This document shows, piece after piece, positions 7,121 through 25,514 of a DNA stretch of 50,425 nucleotides. Position numbers and translations under genes: made by a program. The first letter of the stretch is position 1, and every line of letters begins with the position of its first letter. Under the pieces are notes generated by a model, which was given only the letters and a program-made list of their open reading frames with translations, searched no databases and was not told the origin of the DNA. The DNA comes from Magnetovibrio sp. PR-2 (GTDB lineage Bacteria; Pseudomonadota; Alphaproteobacteria; Rhodospirillales; Magnetovibrionaceae), in the NCBI RefSeq assembly GCF_036689815.1, contig NZ_JBAHUR010000017.1, positions 1-50,425 on the forward strand, written 5' to 3'.

Positions 7121-7773
7121 GTCATACGCCCCTTTGACAATTGTGCAAAAAATGCATTTGCGAAAACATCCAGTGGGGCGTTGGAGCGCACCAACTTGGC
7201 GCGCAAAATCGCACCCTCCCAACCGATCCAGAAAAATGCGGCGAGCTCAGTGCAGTTCGCGTCCCGGGACAATTCACCCGCGTCGCGCGCCAGGACCAAG
7301 CACGCTTTGATGCGCGCCTGCCAATCCTTGAACACCGCTTCCAATTGCGCGCGAAACACGTCGTGCGTGCCGCCCAGCTCTTGGCCCAAATTGCCGATCA
7401 AGCACCCCCGGCGAAAATCGTGGCGCGACATGCCGTCTTTGGCATCGTCGATAAAATTCTGCAACCGCTGCAAGGGCGTGAATTGATCATTCAGCAATGA
7501 CTTATCCAGCTTGTCAGAGAAGTAATTGGCGTAACCCTCAATCACGGCTAGGCCAAAATCGTCTTTGCTCTTGAAATAGTGATAGAACGACCCCTTGGGC
7601 ACGCCGACAGCCTTCAAGGTTTTGTCCAACCCCGTACTGGCATAGCCGTGCTCGGTCAAAAGCTCGATCCCTTTTCGCACCAAACGTTCACGCGTCACGG
7701 CTTGCCCACCAGCCTTTGGCGGGCGTCCGCGTTTGCGTTTTTTGGGGGCCGATTGGAGCGTTTCTAAGGTCAT
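7117..7773 (-). CDS. acuR: TetR-family repressor, AcuR-like
   Basis: The protein has 218 aa. A basic tail (KKRKRGRPPK, residues 11-20) precedes a TetR helix-turn-helix whose recognition part contains VGVPKGSFYHYFKSKDD. The C-terminal ligand domain includes RRGCLIGNLGQELG, typical of the AcuR/YxaF-like C-terminal family. It heads the operon with the AhpD-like gene and acuI, so it most likely represses its own operon and responds to acrylate or acryloyl-CoA. An inverted repeat lies 12-26 nt before its start. No strong ribosome site is visible. The acuR assignment rests on context and family resemblance. Confidence 0.8.
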   Translation of the reverse strand: MTLETLQSAPKKRKRGRPPKAGGQAVTRERLVRKGIELLTEHGYASTGLDKTLKAVGVPKGSFYHYFKSKDDFGLAVIEGYANYFSDKLDKSLLNDQFTPLQRLQNFIDDAKDGMSRHDFRRGCLIGNLGQELGGTHDVFRAQLEAVFKDWQARIKACLVLARDAGELSRDANCTELAAFFWIGWEGAILRAKLVRSNAPLDVFANAFFAQLSKGRMT

Positions 7774-7784
7774 GTTGGTATTAT

Positions 7785-7799
7785 TAGACCAATCGTCTA
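7785..7799. promoter_or_regulatory. candidate AcuR/TetR operator
   Basis: TAGAC (7785-7789) and GTCTA (7795-7799) form a perfect inverted repeat with a 5-nt spacer in a TA-rich setting (TATTAGAC...GTCTATTA). The site lies just upstream of the acuR start codon, where binding would block transcription or ribosome access. Confidence 0.5.
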
Positions 7800-7879
7800 T
7801 TAAATGTCAATATTGATCTTTACCCCAGGAGTTCGTTAGTCTTATTGGACACACACGCCAGACGACCAAATGGATAATC

Positions 7880-8932
7880 ATGACCGACGCGCCCACGCCC
7901 CCCGATGATGCTCCCGACGCGGGAGAAGCCCCTTCATCGCCTCAGGACGACAACAAGATTCCTGAGGTGATTGAGTTTAATCACCCCTTCTTTAGGTCCA
8001 TTGAAAAGACCGGCTTCAAGGTTTTGGAAGACACAAACGAAACCGTCATGACCATGATTTTGGATGACGGGGAAGTGACCCTGAAATTGGGCGGCATTAA
8101 GACCGAGCTTAAACTGAGTGACGACGACCCGGATGCCAAAATGCTCGACTACATCGCCAAAGGCTTGGAATTCGTTCGCGAACTGCACATTGGCGACAAG
8201 ATGCCAACAGAGCTCACCACGGGGCGCGCCTCGTGGGAGATCACCGAACTTCACAAAGCCGTTGCCCACAACCGGGTTACCATGCAGCTGGTGTCTTGGG
8301 TGTCTGGTGATGAGCATCTCATCACGGACCCGACCGAATTGGAGCAAGTCGTCAACGACCCGACGACCAAAACCAAAATCAACGAAGCCTTTTCCAAAGC
8401 CGCCAAGGCGCTCAAAATTGGCGAAGACCGCCGCGAAGACGTGATCGCATTGATTTCCAACTTGGCTGAAGAATTGGCTTACATCGAAGCCTTGCGCGAT
8501 GCCTACCACGATGTCGAACACATCATCACGAGCGTTCTCAGACTGGAACAAAAGTACAAATCCGAACAAAGCGTGATGGATACGATCCAGCCGATCAAAC
8601 GCTTGCTCAAAATTGCCAACGACAGTTTCCAAATGAACTTCTTGGAACTGGATGCACAAACGGGTGAAATCTTATCCGCACTCAGCAACATCGCCCAGGT
8701 CACCCGCTTTATCCGCGAACACCGTGACGATTTGCATCGCCGCCTGTGGGCTTGGGAAGAGATCGCGGGCGATTGGCGTGACCACGATGTGAAGCGTTCG
8801 CGCAAATCGGAACAGTTGTTGGAAGAGCTCTATCACTTCCTCGCCCAACGCTTCTTACCCCGCAAAGAATGGGAGCTCTATTCCAAGGCGTTGGAAAACA
8901 CCAAGAAGCGCGCGACGGAAGTCATTTGGTAA
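7880..8932 (+). CDS. conserved-looking protein of unknown function
   Basis: I do not recognise this 350-aa protein. It has no signal peptide or membrane segment. The first 25 residues are acidic and rich in Pro and Asp, likely disordered. A mixed alpha/beta part follows (about 30-150), with VTLKLGGIKTELKLS. Residues 170-350 look helical and charged, perhaps coiled coil, with repeated Leu heptads around LEQKYKSEQSVMDTIQPIKRLLK and a Trp-rich stretch RRLWAWEEIAGDW near 290. It diverges from acuR and shares a terminator with converging trpB. Codon use matches neighbouring genes, so it is a genuine resident gene, probably cytoplasmic. Confidence 0.75.
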   Translation: MTDAPTPPDDAPDAGEAPSSPQDDNKIPEVIEFNHPFFRSIEKTGFKVLEDTNETVMTMILDDGEVTLKLGGIKTELKLSDDDPDAKMLDYIAKGLEFVRELHIGDKMPTELTTGRASWEITELHKAVAHNRVTMQLVSWVSGDEHLITDPTELEQVVNDPTTKTKINEAFSKAAKALKIGEDRREDVIALISNLAEELAYIEALRDAYHDVEHIITSVLRLEQKYKSEQSVMDTIQPIKRLLKIANDSFQMNFLELDAQTGEILSALSNIAQVTRFIREHRDDLHRRLWAWEEIAGDWRDHDVKRSRKSEQLLEELYHFLAQRFLPRKEWELYSKALENTKKRATEVIW

Positions 8933-20824: not shown

Positions 20825-21028
20825 GGAACGTCTTCCCCAATTCTCTCAGGCCCTGATTTCCGGCCCCTTCCCCATATGCGAGCTCAATCGCACGATTCGT
20901 GGCCGCATTTTAGCAGAGGGGCTAGATGTTGTGGGAAAGAAGTGCGGCTGAGTGGGCCATTCAGAAAACAACAACTTGATGTACTGCCTTTATTGCGAAA
21001 ACCAATGGGTGTATTATCTGCTCAATAA

Positions 21029-21043
21029 TCTCACAATGTGAGA
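21029..21043. promoter_or_regulatory. perfect palindrome, candidate operator of the DUF488 module
   Basis: TCTCACAATGTGAGA is a 15-nt perfect palindrome (TCTCACA-A-TGTGAGA) lying 71 nt before the first gene of the module. A second inverted repeat TTTGAGC/GCTCAAA surrounds the following 40 nt. Both are typical positions for repressor binding; no regulator gene is present in the module. Confidence 0.4.
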
Positions 21044-21113
21044 CACTTTGTTTGAGCCCAAAACAAAATACCTTCAAGAGACGCTCAAAACAGGAACTAT
21101 ATGAAGGAAGCGA

Positions 21114-21809
21114 ATGACATATACGAAAAGATTTGTTTGCTTAGCCAAGTCCTGGCGGCCAGGAGGAAGCTGTGTTGCTGGAAAAGAAGTACTGGCTGAT
21201 GGTTCTTTCGGAAACTGGATTCGGCCAATTAGCAACCATGGTGAAGAAGGCATTAGCCAAGAAGAACTAACAAAAAGAAGCGGCTATGAACTTAAGCTTG
21301 GTGATATGGTCGATATCACTTTTGCAGAACACTCGCCTCACCTTCATCAGGTTGAAAACCATAAGATTGCCCCCAATATTCCCTGGGGAGATCAATATAA
21401 AAAAACGGCAGATGAGTTGCGAGCGGCAGTTGATCACTTTGAAGGTATTTTGTGGCATAATGGCACAAGCAGCCAACACGGGATGAACGACGAAGTTCCT
21501 GAAATCTATCTTCAGGGTTTTCAGCATTCTCTTTTATTGATTCAAGTACCGGAACTGAACATTCAAATCACCCATACACCGAAGGCTGATGGCAGCACTA
21601 AAAGAACATACAGAGGTGACTTCACGTTAAATGGTGTACCGTACAGTTTCAGGATCACTGACCCGACGATGCACTGGCGGATCAATGATAGAACCGCACA
21701 AAGGTACCAATATATAGGACCTCTATTATGTATAAGTTTGAGTGGGGTCTTTCCTGAAACCAGATGTGCTCATAAGCTAATTGCATCAGTAATTGCTGAT
21801 GACATGTAA
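21114..21809 (+). CDS. dual-OB-like accessory protein of the DUF488 module
   Basis: The protein has 231 aa with no signal or membrane segment. The start at 21114 follows GAAGGAAGCGA. The N-terminal half opens with KRFVCLAKSWRPGGSCVAGK and GNWIRPIS; the second half has LNIQITHT, YRGDFTLNGVPYSFRITDP and LLCISLSGVF. These are beta-strand-rich, and the layout agrees with the dual OB-fold family that I recall seeing next to DUF488 genes. That assignment is from memory and not verified. The DNA is clearly poorer in GC than the flanks. It is followed after 18 nt by two overlapping DUF488 genes, so all three form one operon, probably acquired together. Confidence 0.68.
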   Translation: MTYTKRFVCLAKSWRPGGSCVAGKEVLADGSFGNWIRPISNHGEEGISQEELTKRSGYELKLGDMVDITFAEHSPHLHQVENHKIAPNIPWGDQYKKTADELRAAVDHFEGILWHNGTSSQHGMNDEVPEIYLQGFQHSLLLIQVPELNIQITHTPKADGSTKRTYRGDFTLNGVPYSFRITDPTMHWRINDRTAQRYQYIGPLLCISLSGVFPETRCAHKLIASVIADDM

Positions 21810-21827
21810 GGAACACCAGCTGTACCA

Positions 21828-22451
21828 ATGACAATAAGTGTTTTCACCGTCGGCCACTCAACGCATTCCATTGAAAAATTCATAGGAATGTTGGATATGC
21901 ATGGCATCACAGCGCTAGCTGATGTTCGCTCTTCTCCTTACAGCCAATACAATCCGCAATTTAATCGAGAAAGCTTAAAGGCCGCTTTGCGCTGCCAAGG
22001 CATACAGTATGTATTTTTAGGTGAAGAGCTAGGCGCCAGAAGCGAGGATCCAAAGTGCTACAAAGATGGCAAAGTTCAATTTGATAGACTAGCACAAACG
22101 GAATTGTTTAGAGAGGGACTTGAGCGGGTTGCTACAGGTTCTGAACAATACAAAATTTCTCTCATGTGTGCTGAAAAAGACCCTATTGAATGTCATCGCA
22201 CGATATTGGTCTCCAGAAGTTTGAAAGAATCTGGTTTTTCAGTGATCCACATTTTAGCGGATGGAAAAACAGAGGCTCATGAAGACTTAGAAAGTCGTTT
22301 AATAGCTATGTTTAAGATGAATAATCATGATCTGTTTTTATCAGCAGATGAGATACTCAAAAAAGCATATACCAAACAAGGTGAAGCGATTGCCTACACA
22401 ATGAAAACAGAAGAAGAGGATGCTGATTCTCGAAAGAGGGCCCAGGGATGA
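21828..22451 (+). CDS. DUF488 family protein (first of pair)
   Basis: The protein has 207 aa. The N-terminus reads FTVGHSTHSIEKFIGML and LADVRSSPYSQYNPQFNRE, the DUF488 hallmark, with LGEELG downstream. The conserved cysteine/histidine motif is MCAEKDPIECHRT (about residues 115-127). A C-terminal extension of about 60 residues is charged and helical. The family has a Rossmann-like core and an unsettled role; the conserved Asp-Val-Arg and Cys-x-x-Cys-His-Arg residues suggest an enzyme. AAGGA precedes the start. Its TGA overlaps the next ATG (ATGA), so the two DUF488 proteins are translationally coupled. Confidence 0.9.
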   Translation: MTISVFTVGHSTHSIEKFIGMLDMHGITALADVRSSPYSQYNPQFNRESLKAALRCQGIQYVFLGEELGARSEDPKCYKDGKVQFDRLAQTELFREGLERVATGSEQYKISLMCAEKDPIECHRTILVSRSLKESGFSVIHILADGKTEAHEDLESRLIAMFKMNNHDLFLSADEILKKAYTKQGEAIAYTMKTEEEDADSRKRAQG

Positions 22452-22879
22452 AACTCTTTACTATCGGCTTTACAAAAACCACTGCCCAAAACTTTTTTGA
22501 ACGCCTGAAAAATTCAGGAGCCAAAAAGATTATTGACGTTCGCCTGAATAATGTCTCTCAGCTGGCAGGTTTTGCAAAACGCGATGACTTAAAATATTTC
22601 TCTCAAACCATTTGCAGTATGGACTACCTGCACGCTCCCAAGCTTGCTCCGACAAAAGATATTCTTGATGACTATAAAAAGAAAAAAGGCGCATGGGAGG
22701 ATTATGAAAAACGTTTTCATGATTTGATGGTGAAAAGAAAGATTGAAGACATCGACAAAAATGTTGTGGATGGAGGATGCTTGCTGTGCAGTGAAGACAA
22801 ACCTCACCACTGCCACAGACGTCTGGTCGCCGAGTACCTTAAAGATAAATGGGATGGAGTAGACATCATTCATCTATAA
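22448..22879 (+). CDS. DUF488 family protein (second of pair)
   Basis: The protein has 143 aa, a compact DUF488 of a different subfamily from its neighbour. Core motifs are FTIGFTKTTAQNFFERL, KIIDVRLNNVSQLAGFAKR and LHAPKLAPTKDILDDYK. The Cys/His motif is LLCSEDKPHHCHRRLVAEYL (about 112-131). The protein is rich in Lys and the DNA is AT-rich, like the two genes before it. Two divergent DUF488 paralogues side by side could form a heterodimer; that is inference. No terminator with a T-run follows; repeat-rich non-coding DNA begins after the stop. Confidence 0.9.
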   Translation: MKLFTIGFTKTTAQNFFERLKNSGAKKIIDVRLNNVSQLAGFAKRDDLKYFSQTICSMDYLHAPKLAPTKDILDDYKKKKGAWEDYEKRFHDLMVKRKIEDIDKNVVDGGCLLCSEDKPHHCHRRLVAEYLKDKWDGVDIIHL

Positions 22880-22933
22880 TTGCATTTCCGTCCCCCCAAT
22901 TGAAAACCTCCCCAAACAAGCCAACGATCAATG

Positions 22934-22962
22934 GGGTCAGTGTAATTTAATTTAATTTAATT
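22934..22962. repeat. REP-like head plus pentanucleotide tandem repeat
   Basis: GGGGTCAGTG is followed by four perfect TAATT units (22943-22962). GGGGTCAG next to an AT tract resembles the ends of REP elements in other proteobacteria, but no RAYT transposase is in the window. It marks the border between the DUF488 module and the repeat zone. Confidence 0.5.
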
Positions 22963-22966
22963 CACC

Positions 22967-23118
22967 TCACTCCTCGTCACCCCGGACTTGATCTGGGGTC
23001 CATGGGCGGGGGCTTGGGCGTGGTCGTCAGAAACTTTATGCCGCGATGCCCATAGGCTCCTGCCTGCGCAGGAGCGACGGGGGCGTTTGGGGTTAATAGG
23101 CTGGAAACAAAAACAAAA
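22967..23118. repeat. direct repeat copy 1 (about 150 bp)
   Basis: This matches 24323-24480 with high identity, best from GTCACCCCGGACTTGATC (22976) to the palindrome CTCCTGCCTGCGCAGGAG and on to an A-rich tail GAAACAAAAACAAAAA. It contains the imperfect inverted repeat CCCCGGACTTGATCTGGGG, a form common in alphaproteobacterial intergenic DNA. A CCCCAATTG lies 82 nt before the 22976 anchor, as one lies 74 nt before the equivalent point of copy 2. Confidence 0.85.
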
Positions 23119-23120
23119 AT

Positions 23121-23208
23121 CGTCATTGCGAGAAGCGAAGCGACGAAGCAATCCAGCATCTCTCGTGATGGACGACCCTGGATGGATTCGCTGCGCTCGC
23201 AATTGACG
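23121..23208. repeat. palindromic interspersed repeat
   Basis: CGTCATTGCGAG (23121-23132) is answered by CTCGCAATTGACG at the right end (23196-23208), with the inner arms GCAATCCAG and CCTGGAT also complementary. The phrase AAGCGACGAAGCAATCCAG is a widely scattered bacterial intergenic repeat type (MITE/RPE-like). Only one copy is in the window. Confidence 0.7.
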
Positions 23209-23285
23209 CCCTTCTCCCTTTCCCTCTGCGCACTCTGTGTCCTCTGTGGTGCAGACCCCAATTGCCCCCGCTCACGCGTACCCCC

Positions 23286-23360
23286 CCCCGTCAGCTTACT
23301 GACGATGGTGATAAACGTTTTTCGCAATAAGCCTATGGGACCCAGGGCGGGGGGCGTCCA
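23286..23360 (+). pseudogene. decayed copy of the tmRNA acceptor segment
   Basis: It aligns with 25099-25173, the acceptor piece of the intact ssrA gene. CCCCGTCAGCTT, CTGAC, then 21 unbroken bases (ATGGTGATAAACG through TTTTTCG, 23304-23324) and AATAAGC and GGACCC match with isolated substitutions. Similarity probably begins at CCCCAATTG (23256, matching 25062). From the T-arm onward it breaks down: the GGTACC part and the terminal CCTCCACCA are lost, so no functional acceptor can form. No second tag-coding part follows. Confidence 0.75.
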
Positions 23361-23392
23361 GACCATTACCGTCAGGCCATTTGGGGGCTTCG

Positions 23393-24172
23393 TTATTTCG
23401 CGCCGAAGACCTTCATGAGAATTTCTGACGTGCGTTTCGCGGGGTTTTGGCGGATGGCCGCTTCTTCTGCCGCCAGATAATGAAACAACCCCTCCAACGC
23501 CAAGTCCGTCGCGTGGTCCGTTAAATTGGCTTTCAAGTCCGGCACGAAGGGGATGGATTTGTATTCTCCAACCAACTGATCGTAAGCCGTCACGGCACCA
23601 ACGTCTTGGAGCGTTTTATCGATAACGGGGGCCATGGTCGATTTCAAATCTTGTGATGAGACGCGCCGGAAATACTGTGTCGCGGCGTCATTTGGACCTT
23701 CGTAAATGGCCTTTGCGTCTTGCAGTGTCATGGACGTGATCGCGTCCAAAACCAACTGCTTTGCTTTCGGCATTGCGGCTTCGGCCCCCCGGTTGAGTTT
23801 TAATTCAACGTCGTCAGCCAATCCGCCAAGACCAAACTTACGCAATGTCGATTGGACCGTTTGCAATTCTTTCGGCAAAGGGATGTGCACGGCGGGATCG
23901 GTGTTAAAACCATCGGCTGCCCCCAATTGTCCAGTTACAGTTTTGGTCCCGACAACCAGGGCTTCTTTTAATCCGGACACAAGGTCGTGCGTTGACAGCC
24001 CCATCATCGAAGCCGCCCCGCTGTCACGGCTTGGCTGATCCGTTACCGCCTCGACCGTACCTTGTAAGATTTTCATCCATTCCTGCGCGTAGGTCGGCAC
24101 AGCCGCCACAACCACAGCACAAACGAATACCGACATGAAAAACATCCGGATTGCTACATTTGGGAATTTCAT
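23393..24172 (-). CDS. DUF4197 family exported protein
   Basis: The protein has 259 aa. A signal peptide (residues 1-30, core FFMSVFVCAVVVAAV, ending TYA) precedes a helical DUF4197 domain: LVSGLKEALVVGTKTVTGQLG, IPLPKELQTVQSTLRKFGLG, LVLDAITSMTLQDAKAI, YEGPNDAATQYFRR and the C-terminal LAAEEAAIRQNPAKRTSEILMKVF. Family function is unknown; members are periplasmic or lipoprotein-like. GAGGCACAGCG precedes the ATG. The gene lies between the two ~150 bp direct repeats and beside the tmRNA relic, so it sits in a segment prone to duplication, though its composition is that of a resident gene. Confidence 0.88.
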   Translation of the reverse strand: MKFPNVAIRMFFMSVFVCAVVVAAVPTYAQEWMKILQGTVEAVTDQPSRDSGAASMMGLSTHDLVSGLKEALVVGTKTVTGQLGAADGFNTDPAVHIPLPKELQTVQSTLRKFGLGGLADDVELKLNRGAEAAMPKAKQLVLDAITSMTLQDAKAIYEGPNDAATQYFRRVSSQDLKSTMAPVIDKTLQDVGAVTAYDQLVGEYKSIPFVPDLKANLTDHATDLALEGLFHYLAAEEAAIRQNPAKRTSEILMKVFGAK

Positions 24173-24322
24173 CGCTGTGCCTCACAAACTGTGTCTCAAA
24201 AACGTTCCAACAAAACTATGTCAGTTGATTGTAAACCGTTTACCCATCGTGAGAAAGGGCTCCCCCAATTGCAAATAGGCCTCGCTATGCTTAAGAAATC
24301 AATGAGATCAGAATAAATTGGT

Positions 24323-24480
24323 TTCCCTCACCCCCCGTCACCCCGGACTTGATCCGGAGTCCATGGGCGGGGGCTGGGCGTGGTCGTGAGAAACTTTATG
24401 CCGCGATGCCCATAGGCTCCTGCCTGCGCAGGAGCGACGAGGTGCGTTTTGTCTTAATCAACTGAAAACAATAACAAAAA
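24323..24480. repeat. direct repeat copy 2 (about 150 bp)
   Basis: Second copy of the repeat at 22967-23118, in the same orientation 1361 bp downstream. The shared core includes CCCCGGACTTGATCC, TCCATGGGCGGGGGC and GAAACTTTATGCCGCGATGC, then the CTCCTGCCTGCGCAGGAG palindrome. It fills most of the 374-bp gap between the DUF4197 gene and the next ORF; nothing else is visible there. Confidence 0.85.
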
Positions 24481-24546
24481 CCACCCCGAAACAAGGTTGC
24501 GACCTGTCTCGTGGTGGCTGTGTTTTGAGCTATCCCGACAAGGACG

Positions 24547-24921
24547 TTATACTGACGCCGGATAATAAATGGCGATCGTTGCGTCGTTGTGGGATGCGTT
24601 GGTGAACGTCACCCGAGCATTTTGTGCTTGTTTCGGCGACAATGAGTTCAAGAATTTGGCCGCATCGCTATACAGCCGATCGTAATCCGTGGACGTACTC
24701 ACAATTTCCATCTGAAACGTTGTTGTCATGACGCCTTCGAAGCTATCCCCGTCTGAATCATAAAAACACACAGCCCGTGCGTCTTTACCACGCATATCGC
24801 TCGCAGAAATTTTGCAAGTCTCGCGTTGCGCTGTGTCCAAACCATTTGCTGCATTCAACATGTTCCGTTCTGCATCATCGGCTTGCGATCCTTCTACTGC
24901 TACATATGACCAAGTGCTCAT
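24547..24921 (-). CDS. small protein of unknown function
   Basis: The protein has 124 aa and is not recognised. It has no signal peptide or membrane span. GGGAG about 8 nt before the ATG at 24921 makes translation likely. The sequence is rich in Asp, Ser, Ala and Thr, with two Cys (CKISASD and VCFYDSDGD). FYDSDGDSFEG looks like an acidic turn and the C-terminus ends NDATIAIYYPASV, suggesting beta strands. It lies between repeat copy 2 and the tmRNA gene. The equivalent interval after repeat copy 1 lacks it and is shorter by about the gene's length. Confidence 0.6.
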   Translation of the reverse strand: MSTWSYVAVEGSQADDAERNMLNAANGLDTAQRETCKISASDMRGKDARAVCFYDSDGDSFEGVMTTTFQMEIVSTSTDYDRLYSDAAKFLNSLSPKQAQNARVTFTNASHNDATIAIYYPASV

Positions 24922-25098
24922 GTCACGTCTCCCTTTGTTTCTCTATCAACGATTTAAAAAAGATTAGTTCACGCTATACGAGTAAGCATCTGCATGCAAT
25001 TTTTAATTGTTTTCATATTTGTGAATAAACCTTGAATTGCTCTAAAAATGATCACCCCCGGCCCCAATTGAAATCCTCCTTCAGCAGGCGTATATATA

Positions 25099-25406
25099 CC
25101 CCGTCAGCTTGCTGACTATGGTGATAAACGTTTTTCGGAATAAGCATTTCGGACCCGGGGGCGGTACCCGGCGCCTCCACCAAAAATTCTCGCGGTTTGT
25201 GTAGGTTATCCAATGACATACAGCGGAAGGTTTGGGGGCGAAATAGGATCGACGAGTGTGGTAAAGGACTGACTTTCACCCGGCATTGTACCACCGTATC
25301 GGGCTACTTTTATAAATGCTAACGATAACGAAGCATTTGCAGTTGCCGCTTAATCGCTAAGCAACTACGGGGTTCGGAGGGCACCTTGCAACAGAAGCCC
25401 TCCACT
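25099..25406 (+). ncRNA. ssrA: permuted two-piece transfer-messenger RNA
   Basis: Rescues stalled ribosomes and adds a degradation tag. The gene is circularly permuted as in alphaproteobacteria: the acceptor piece comes first (about 25099-25182, ending CCTCCACCA), then a ~51-nt spacer that is removed, then the coding piece from 25234. The acceptor stem pairs GGGGGCG (25234-25240) with CGCCTCC (25172-25178). The T-arm region GGACCCGGG...TACCCGG lies before it. The tag frame at 25318-25353 encodes ANDNEAFAVAA and a stop, ending in the AVAA of alphaproteobacterial tags. A hairpin GGAGGGC/GCCCTCC (25376-25403) closes the piece. Exact mature ends are not determined. Confidence 0.93.
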
Positions 25407-25425
25407 TTATTAAAATAAAGCCCTT

Positions 25426-25514
25426 CAAGCGCCAGGCGAGGTTCTGCGAACCTCTTGGCTCGCCGCATAAGCGGCGGCGCGCGGTCGCGCTTGCCTCATG
25501 GCCCTTTGGGCCAA
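25426..25514. repeat. multi-branched palindromic element after tmRNA
   Basis: CAAGCGC (25426-25432) pairs with GCGCTTG (25487-25493) and encloses three smaller hairpins: GAGGTTC/GAACCTC, GCCGC/GCGGC and GCGCG/CGCGC. GGCCC/GGGCC follows at 25500-25512. No coding potential is seen. It may protect or process the ssrA transcript, or be an interspersed palindromic repeat. The rest of the gap to sspB shows no further structure. Confidence 0.5.

Follow-up and report, generated by a model that had tools for sequence, protein, structure and literature searches.

A horizontally acquired DuOB–DUF488–DUF488 operon of Magnetovibrio sp. PR-2 as a candidate defence module, with a related DUF488 branch in formaldehyde-resistance islands

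The stretch of DNA analysed here, referred to as the window, comprises 50,425 nucleotides of contig NZ_JBAHUR010000017.1 of Magnetovibrio sp. PR-2. Three consecutive genes lie on its plus strand, gene A (21114–21809, 231 aa), gene B (21828–22451, 207 aa), and gene C (22448–22879, 143 aa), with an 18-nt gap between A and B and an ATGA overlap between B and C. The GC content of the operon is ~0.41–0.43, whereas that of the flanks is ~0.55, and the GC3 values of A, B, and C (0.38, 0.36, and 0.42, respectively) are lower than those of six genes outside the island described below (0.63–0.75). A 15-bp palindrome with 7-nt arms and a 1-nt centre (TCTCACAATGTGAGA, 21029–21043), a possible operator, is located 70 nt upstream of gene A, and a repeat on the plus strand adjoining the module (22953–23082) recurs at 24326–24442. 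The gene arrangement, the GC content below that of both flanks, the palindrome ahead of the operon, and the repeat zone beside it, all of which had been pointed out in a preliminary description of this DNA, were borne out.

Palindromes with 7-nt arms within 250 bp before the DuOB gene were found in 5 of 36 module loci including that of the window, with no two alike, which rules out a conserved operator. The repeat has 24 matches in its own genome, itself included, and is therefore a dispersed repeat of the host genome that is not part of the module; its use as a module boundary was ruled out.

The three genes match, in order, the A, B, and C models of the candidate system PDC-M45 in PADLOC, which are also their best matches in that collection (E = 4.2e-60, 4.6e-89, and 1.4e-73, respectively). 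As judged from these matches, the operon is the complete set of PDC-M45, with the same three-gene content and no difference in gene content seen. Thus, the status of a defence candidate, as originally suggested, stands, whereas the system is not a new one, as it is already catalogued. PADLOC users describe the PDC systems as unpublished and unvalidated candidates (PMC12988326; PMC11811056). Our literature search found PDC-M45 named in no paper, and no functional test of it.

For gene A, the Pfam family DuOB (PF22557) was matched with E = 5.6e-51 and 174 bits, in comparison with a cut-off of 27 bits. The AlphaFold model, built from 42 sequences, consists mostly of strands arranged in two halves, with a mean pLDDT of 93.4. 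In the Foldseek search against the PDB, HIN-200 domains led the matches, the best being the HIN domain of MNDA with dsDNA (E = 1.4e-4, with a TM-score of ~0.3 and 10% identity), followed by RPA70 with ssDNA (E = 1.3e-3), RPA chains of nucleotide-excision complexes (E = 7.3e-3 and 1.2e-2), and, lower down, a telomere-end binding protein and LEF-3. The top five viral fold matches were four LEF-3-type proteins, the first-ranked of which we take to be LEF-3, and one DNA polymerase. HIN-200 and RPA70 resemble gene A in having two tandem OB folds, whereas the identities are 6–12% and the TM-scores normalized by query length are low (0.28–0.34 for the HIN rows and 0.41 for RPA70), and close homology is not claimed. 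These results support a predicted tandem-OB architecture for the 231-aa protein, in agreement with the dual-OB assignment made from its sequence, and the fold evidence extends to this architecture and no further. In addition, none of A, B, and C matched a solved structure by sequence up to E = 1, and NCBIfam gave no match for A or B and two below the cut-off for C. No paper on DuOB was found in the literature search, and no DuOB match was found in 50,697 phage records.

Genes B and C both belong to DUF488 (PF04343; B, E = 5.5e-27 and 95.2 bits; C, E = 6e-24 and 85.4 bits; cut-off, 22.2 bits). Only gene C exceeds the 27-bit cut-off of the DUF488-N3a subclade (PF22751), with 41.1 bits as compared with 18.9 bits for gene B, in line with the different subfamilies to which the preliminary description had assigned the two proteins. 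The D-V-R and C-x(n)-C-H-R motifs noticed in both proteins were located at D32-x-R34 and C114-x-E-x2-P-x2-C122-H-R in gene B and at D30-x-R32 and C114-S-E-x2-P-x2-C122-H-R in gene C. Not one of the 56 B and 81 C sequences, those of the window included, departs from the motif residues D, R, C, E, C, H, and R. The B and C profiles aligned over 137 columns (E = 1e-13) with the motifs in register, which, together with the invariance of the motif residues, suggests that B and C are two active cysteine-dependent enzymes.

The AlphaFold model of gene C (66 sequences, mean pLDDT of 91.9) has an alpha/beta fold, in which C114 ends the strand 110–114 and H123-R124 begin the helix 123–134. The rhodanese-phosphatase superfamily is defined by a catalytic Cys at the end of a strand and an Arg-bearing phosphate loop, and the Cys at the strand end and the Arg in the loop of the gene C model fit this definition. 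The Cys114-x9-Arg124 loop of gene C may thus be phosphate-loop-like. Burroughs and Aravind reportedly delineated, in 2023, a RapZ-C/DUF488/DUF4326 clade within this superfamily, and gene C resembles its members in the Cys at the strand end and the His-Arg at the helix start; DUF4326 itself replaces DUF488-B in variant modules, as described below. The phosphatase-like reading is based on this classification and on what has been predicted in print for DUF4326, a related family. The PDB fold search with gene C gave nothing below E = 0.001, with CobU nucleotide-kinase-like proteins as the best matches, and the phosphatase matches (8dhi, 3s4o, and 6byf; E = 0.11–0.45) were weak and ranked below other folds. 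The relation of gene C to phosphatases is therefore drawn from the motif and the classification. We know of no agreed function for DUF488, and the literature search found neither a function for it nor anything on its chemistry.

The module lies within DNA that is absent between thyX and ssrA of the congeners and extends approximately over 20940–25061, including the module, the repeats, a partial ssrA copy, and a DUF4197 gene. The order cheZ-like (a label that we assume for the gene preceding thyX), thyX, ssrA, and sspB was seen in all five congeners, and thyX is present in all six genomes of the genus. None of A, B, C, and DUF4197 had a match in the stretch analysed around these genes in any of the five. 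The gap before the ssrA match is ~0.2–0.25 kb in four congeners, and the remaining one (G002, locus L142) carries ~1 kb of other DNA there, suggesting an insertion hotspot.

Beyond the gap itself, gene A was unmatched in five of five congeners, one of which has a genome only 67% complete. Gene B was also unmatched in these five, in a search of 100 relatives of which 25 gave some match, mostly to weaker DUF488 proteins. The genome of PR-2 contains two DUF488 matches, both in this operon. Since the congeners lack DuOB, DUF488-B, and the island in the thyX–ssrA gap, the operon was acquired by horizontal transfer at this gap. The horizontal movement surmised from the sequence alone is thus upheld by the absence of A, B, and the island from the congeners, the low GC3, and the placement of gene C in a tree of 94 distinct proteins (103 rows), which was built from few columns and with a bootstrap that had not converged. 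In this tree, gene C groups with a Planctomycetaceae and a Hyphomicrobiales MAG (99/86), away from the two loci of the same order (L041 and L042), with the deeper forks being weak.

The island is bordered by ssrA, a two-piece (permuted) alphaproteobacterial tmRNA on the plus strand (25064–25406; Rfam RF01849, 254.4 bits; ARAGORN, 25090–25444). At 23286–23347 on the plus strand, 62 bp partially duplicate the beginning of ssrA (25099–25160; 89%) and form a putative att-like remnant, and from this copy we infer that the island integrated at the tmRNA gene. No integrase gene was identified in the thyX–ssrA gap of the window. The DUF4197 gene within the island has a near-native GC3 of 0.60 and is matched elsewhere in two congeners and unmatched in three, and the island is therefore a composite. 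The island also contains a 124-aa ORF on the minus strand (24547–24921), for which Pfam gave nothing above the cut-off.

As gene A alone gave no relative in a scan of genome contigs, the C alignment was used for the species scan (one genome per species), which yielded at least 569 relatives, the best 80 of which were kept; these 80 loci are thus biased to C proteins like that of the window. A, B, and C occur together in 51 of these best 80 loci, across many phyla, demonstrating the recurrent co-location of the three genes. Thus, none of the three outcomes that the preliminary description had named as refuting it, i.e., genes never found together elsewhere, a first protein lacking an OB fold, or a module shared by all close relatives, was observed. 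Eight of the best 80 have B and C without a separate A: six are on contigs whose sequence stops no more than 1.2 kb upstream of C, in L071 (667–1881) DuOB and DUF488-B are fused into one 404-aa protein, and L113 has a Macro-domain gene. Formaldehyde genes and uvrA or uvrB, with neither A nor B, were seen in 13 of the best 80, and neither A, B, nor formaldehyde or Uvr genes were found nearby in eight. The order B-C-A was seen in two cyanobacteria. A DuOB-like gene precedes B-C in L042 (25 bits, as compared with the cut-off of 27) and, as judged by eye, a similar one in L041. In L113, the Macro-domain gene (7402–8238) occupies the usual place of DuOB, ahead of B and C. In the Gallionella locus L053 (6564–13079), partly duplicated uvrB stretches flank the module on both sides, and an AAA_15 gene and a further gene are enclosed with it.

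Among 398 genomes drawn evenly from the phylum, five carry DuOB (counting PR-2, and with one match under the curated cut-off) and nine carry C. C is adjacent to DuOB in all five, three of which have A-B-C (PR-2, L037, and L038), while L039 and L040 have DuOB-C-mSLOG-DUF4326. Among the other four C genomes, G284 has B and C, with a short B, adjoining an apparent IS21 ATPase (labelled by eye), whereas in G361, G345, and G417 no match to A, B, Uvr, or formaldehyde genes accompanies C. On plasmids, DuOB was found in 18 records; among the eight examined, three have A-B-C, four have DuOB-DUF488-DUF4326, and one has a third gene left unclassified. These results indicate a second module type, in which DuOB and C occur with DUF4326, which can replace DUF488-B. 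DuOB is not an oddity of a single species, as it recurs in genomes of the phylum, on plasmids, and at the loci of C relatives. In phage records, C was found only in seven Gordonia phage records, at 28.8% identity.

The pairwise protein distances over 36 of the 81 loci were correlated (A-B, r = 0.34; A-C, r = 0.40; B-C, r = 0.69), with values as high in 1, 0, and 0 of 2000 permutations, respectively, for which shared host ancestry is a possible cause. The alignments used for modelling and for this distance test comprised 66 of the 81 C, 55 of the 56 B, and 42 of the 43 A sequences, while the motif count took in all 81 C and 56 B sequences.

The surroundings of the modules were compared with more distant genes. 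Of 167 neighbouring proteins, called mechanically as ORFs, 146 were scanned and 21 left out; 182 PADLOC models were matched, with mad3 (6), RmrA (4), AriA (4), capP (4), HEC-01A (3), and pAgo (3) as the most frequent among the matches listed, and Pfam matches to XRE-type HTH and IrrE-type peptidase domains were also found. For 121 genes ~4.5 kb or more away, 82 models were matched, with mad3 (3), mad2 (2), and others (1 each) among the matches listed. Phage integrases are not richer near the module (2 of 146 as compared with 3 of 121 at a distance). Defence-type neighbours are thus at most mildly enriched near the module, by a comparison of counts without statistics. CBASS or type III CRISPR genes were found in the vicinity of two of the three A-B-C sets examined on plasmids.

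The earlier reading had missed that DUF4326 can stand in for DUF488-B and that DUF488-C occurs without A and B, most notably close to uvrA or uvrB in formaldehyde islands. The 13 formaldehyde-island loci among the best 80 represent six distinct C sequences, located 0.17–2.03 kb from uvrB (11 loci) or uvrA (2 loci). The DUF488 of these islands is 62–66% identical to gene C and has the same motif residues; it differs in its surroundings, in which DuOB and DUF488-B are absent and formaldehyde and Uvr genes are present instead. C relatives were also found in 130 plasmid records, 88 of them at 60–80% identity, and in four of five records examined C is surrounded by formaldehyde genes and adjoins uvrA or uvrB. 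On the fifth, a Shinella plasmid, genes for a formaldehyde dehydrogenase and for a formaldehyde-sensitive repressor lie no more than 8 kb from C, and the stretch contains no gene annotated as uvr. The uvrA-DUF488 unit of E. coli matched 90 plasmid records, 89 of them covered to at least 80%; 85 match at 99% identity or higher and are hence non-independent. The order on one plasmid, with other genes between, is uvrB (cut, on the other strand), frmR, an adhC-type dehydrogenase, fghA, uvrA, DUF488, and frmR. The enterobacterial plasmid islands L154 and L035 carry uvrA, and L154 also uvrB, with no annotated uvrC in the stretches.

In the C tree, the seven formaldehyde-linked rows and the Shinella row, labelled as solo, form one clade (100/99). 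Outside this clade lie, successively, the A-B-C loci L052 (99/87) and L047 (98/78) and the solo C loci L110 and L112 (95/77). Since A-B-C modules make up the two rows closest to the clade, a single recruitment of C from such a module into the formaldehyde islands is the probable and simplest history; a solo intermediate is also possible. A single DUF488 subclade is thus tied to two settings, the mobile DuOB module and the Uvr-bearing formaldehyde islands, with the tree placing the second in a nested position next to the first. E. coli uvrA mutants are sensitive to formaldehyde, and small DNA-protein crosslinks are handled by nucleotide excision repair (PMC6945406). The occurrence of formaldehyde and Uvr genes on one mobile element has already been published (PMC7156236). 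A link between DUF488 and formaldehyde was not reported in the main texts searched, the sole co-mention being in an unrelated Staphylococcus secretome study.

We favour, with a probability of roughly 45%, a mobile DNA-processing defence module, in which DuOB would bind DNA and the two putatively cysteine-dependent DUF488 enzymes, perhaps as the heterodimer proposed in the preliminary description, would process it. Gene A would recognise DNA ends, single-stranded stretches, or lesions, where B and C, differing DUF488 enzymes that each combine an Asp/Arg site with a Cys/Arg loop of phosphatase-like type, would act on phosphate or sugar. The outcome might be end trimming, adduct removal, or cleavage, and the most likely role would be the restriction of foreign DNA. 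The defence part of this reading is drawn from the PADLOC listing, the sparse and mobile distribution, and the proximity of CBASS or type III CRISPR genes to two of the plasmid copies. The chemistry of C may also be of use on formaldehyde-damaged DNA, with UvrA/UvrB supplying the recognition; defence and repair would both fit if one chemistry serves both.

A bolder extension, which we regard as tentative and rather unlikely, is that DUF488-C is a portable enzyme processing DNA adducts or DNA-protein crosslinks with a swappable recognition partner, DuOB with DUF488-B (or DUF4326) in one setting and UvrA/UvrB in the other. If true, the defence module would be a lesion-repair-like machine aimed at foreign DNA, and its targets would perhaps be ends blocked by a covalently attached protein, as in complexes with relaxase or terminal protein, where the phosphate linkage would be attacked by the phosphatase-like Cys site. 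As a catalogue entry, the operon is ordinary; its interest lies in the DUF488-Uvr-formaldehyde branch, which makes a role in DNA lesions or DNA ends directly testable for a family of no agreed function. The chemistry learned from the island DUF488 could also reveal that of the defence candidate.

Alternatively, A-B-C may be a mobile DNA-repair module that clears lesions or covalent adducts from the DNA of the cell itself. The C relatives near uvrA or uvrB in the formaldehyde islands, the RPA chains of nucleotide-excision complexes among the fold matches of gene A, and the position of the L053 module between uvrB stretches are consistent with such a role. However, the sparse distribution, with only 5 of the 398 genomes carrying DuOB and 9 carrying C, and the two plasmid copies within defence islands argue against it, as does the occurrence of uvrA or uvrB in the DNA covered at only 1 of the 51 A-B-C loci, a count to be read with ample flanks on both sides in just 25 of the 55 loci with B and C. 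We therefore consider this role possible and, on balance, doubtful.

Another explanation is a nucleotide or ADP-ribose system, in which DuOB would be the sensor and DUF488 and DUF4326 would process sugar-phosphate ends, either those of ADP-ribose or those of ADP-ribosylated DNA. mSLOG-DUF4326 was found in two of the three third genes scanned from variant modules, the Macro gene replaces DuOB in L113, and published predictions place DUF4326 in ADP-ribose processing. The operon of the window, however, consists of three genes only, none of which is a known NAD or ADP-ribose enzyme, and the Macro gene is an incidental observation at a single locus. We consider this explanation improbable.

Small and tightly packed genes that are partly found on plasmids would also suit an addiction unit of the toxin-antitoxin kind, with one product restraining another. 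This is very unlikely, as C is maintained in the absence of A and B, both in the formaldehyde islands and elsewhere, and the motif residues are kept in both DUF488 proteins.
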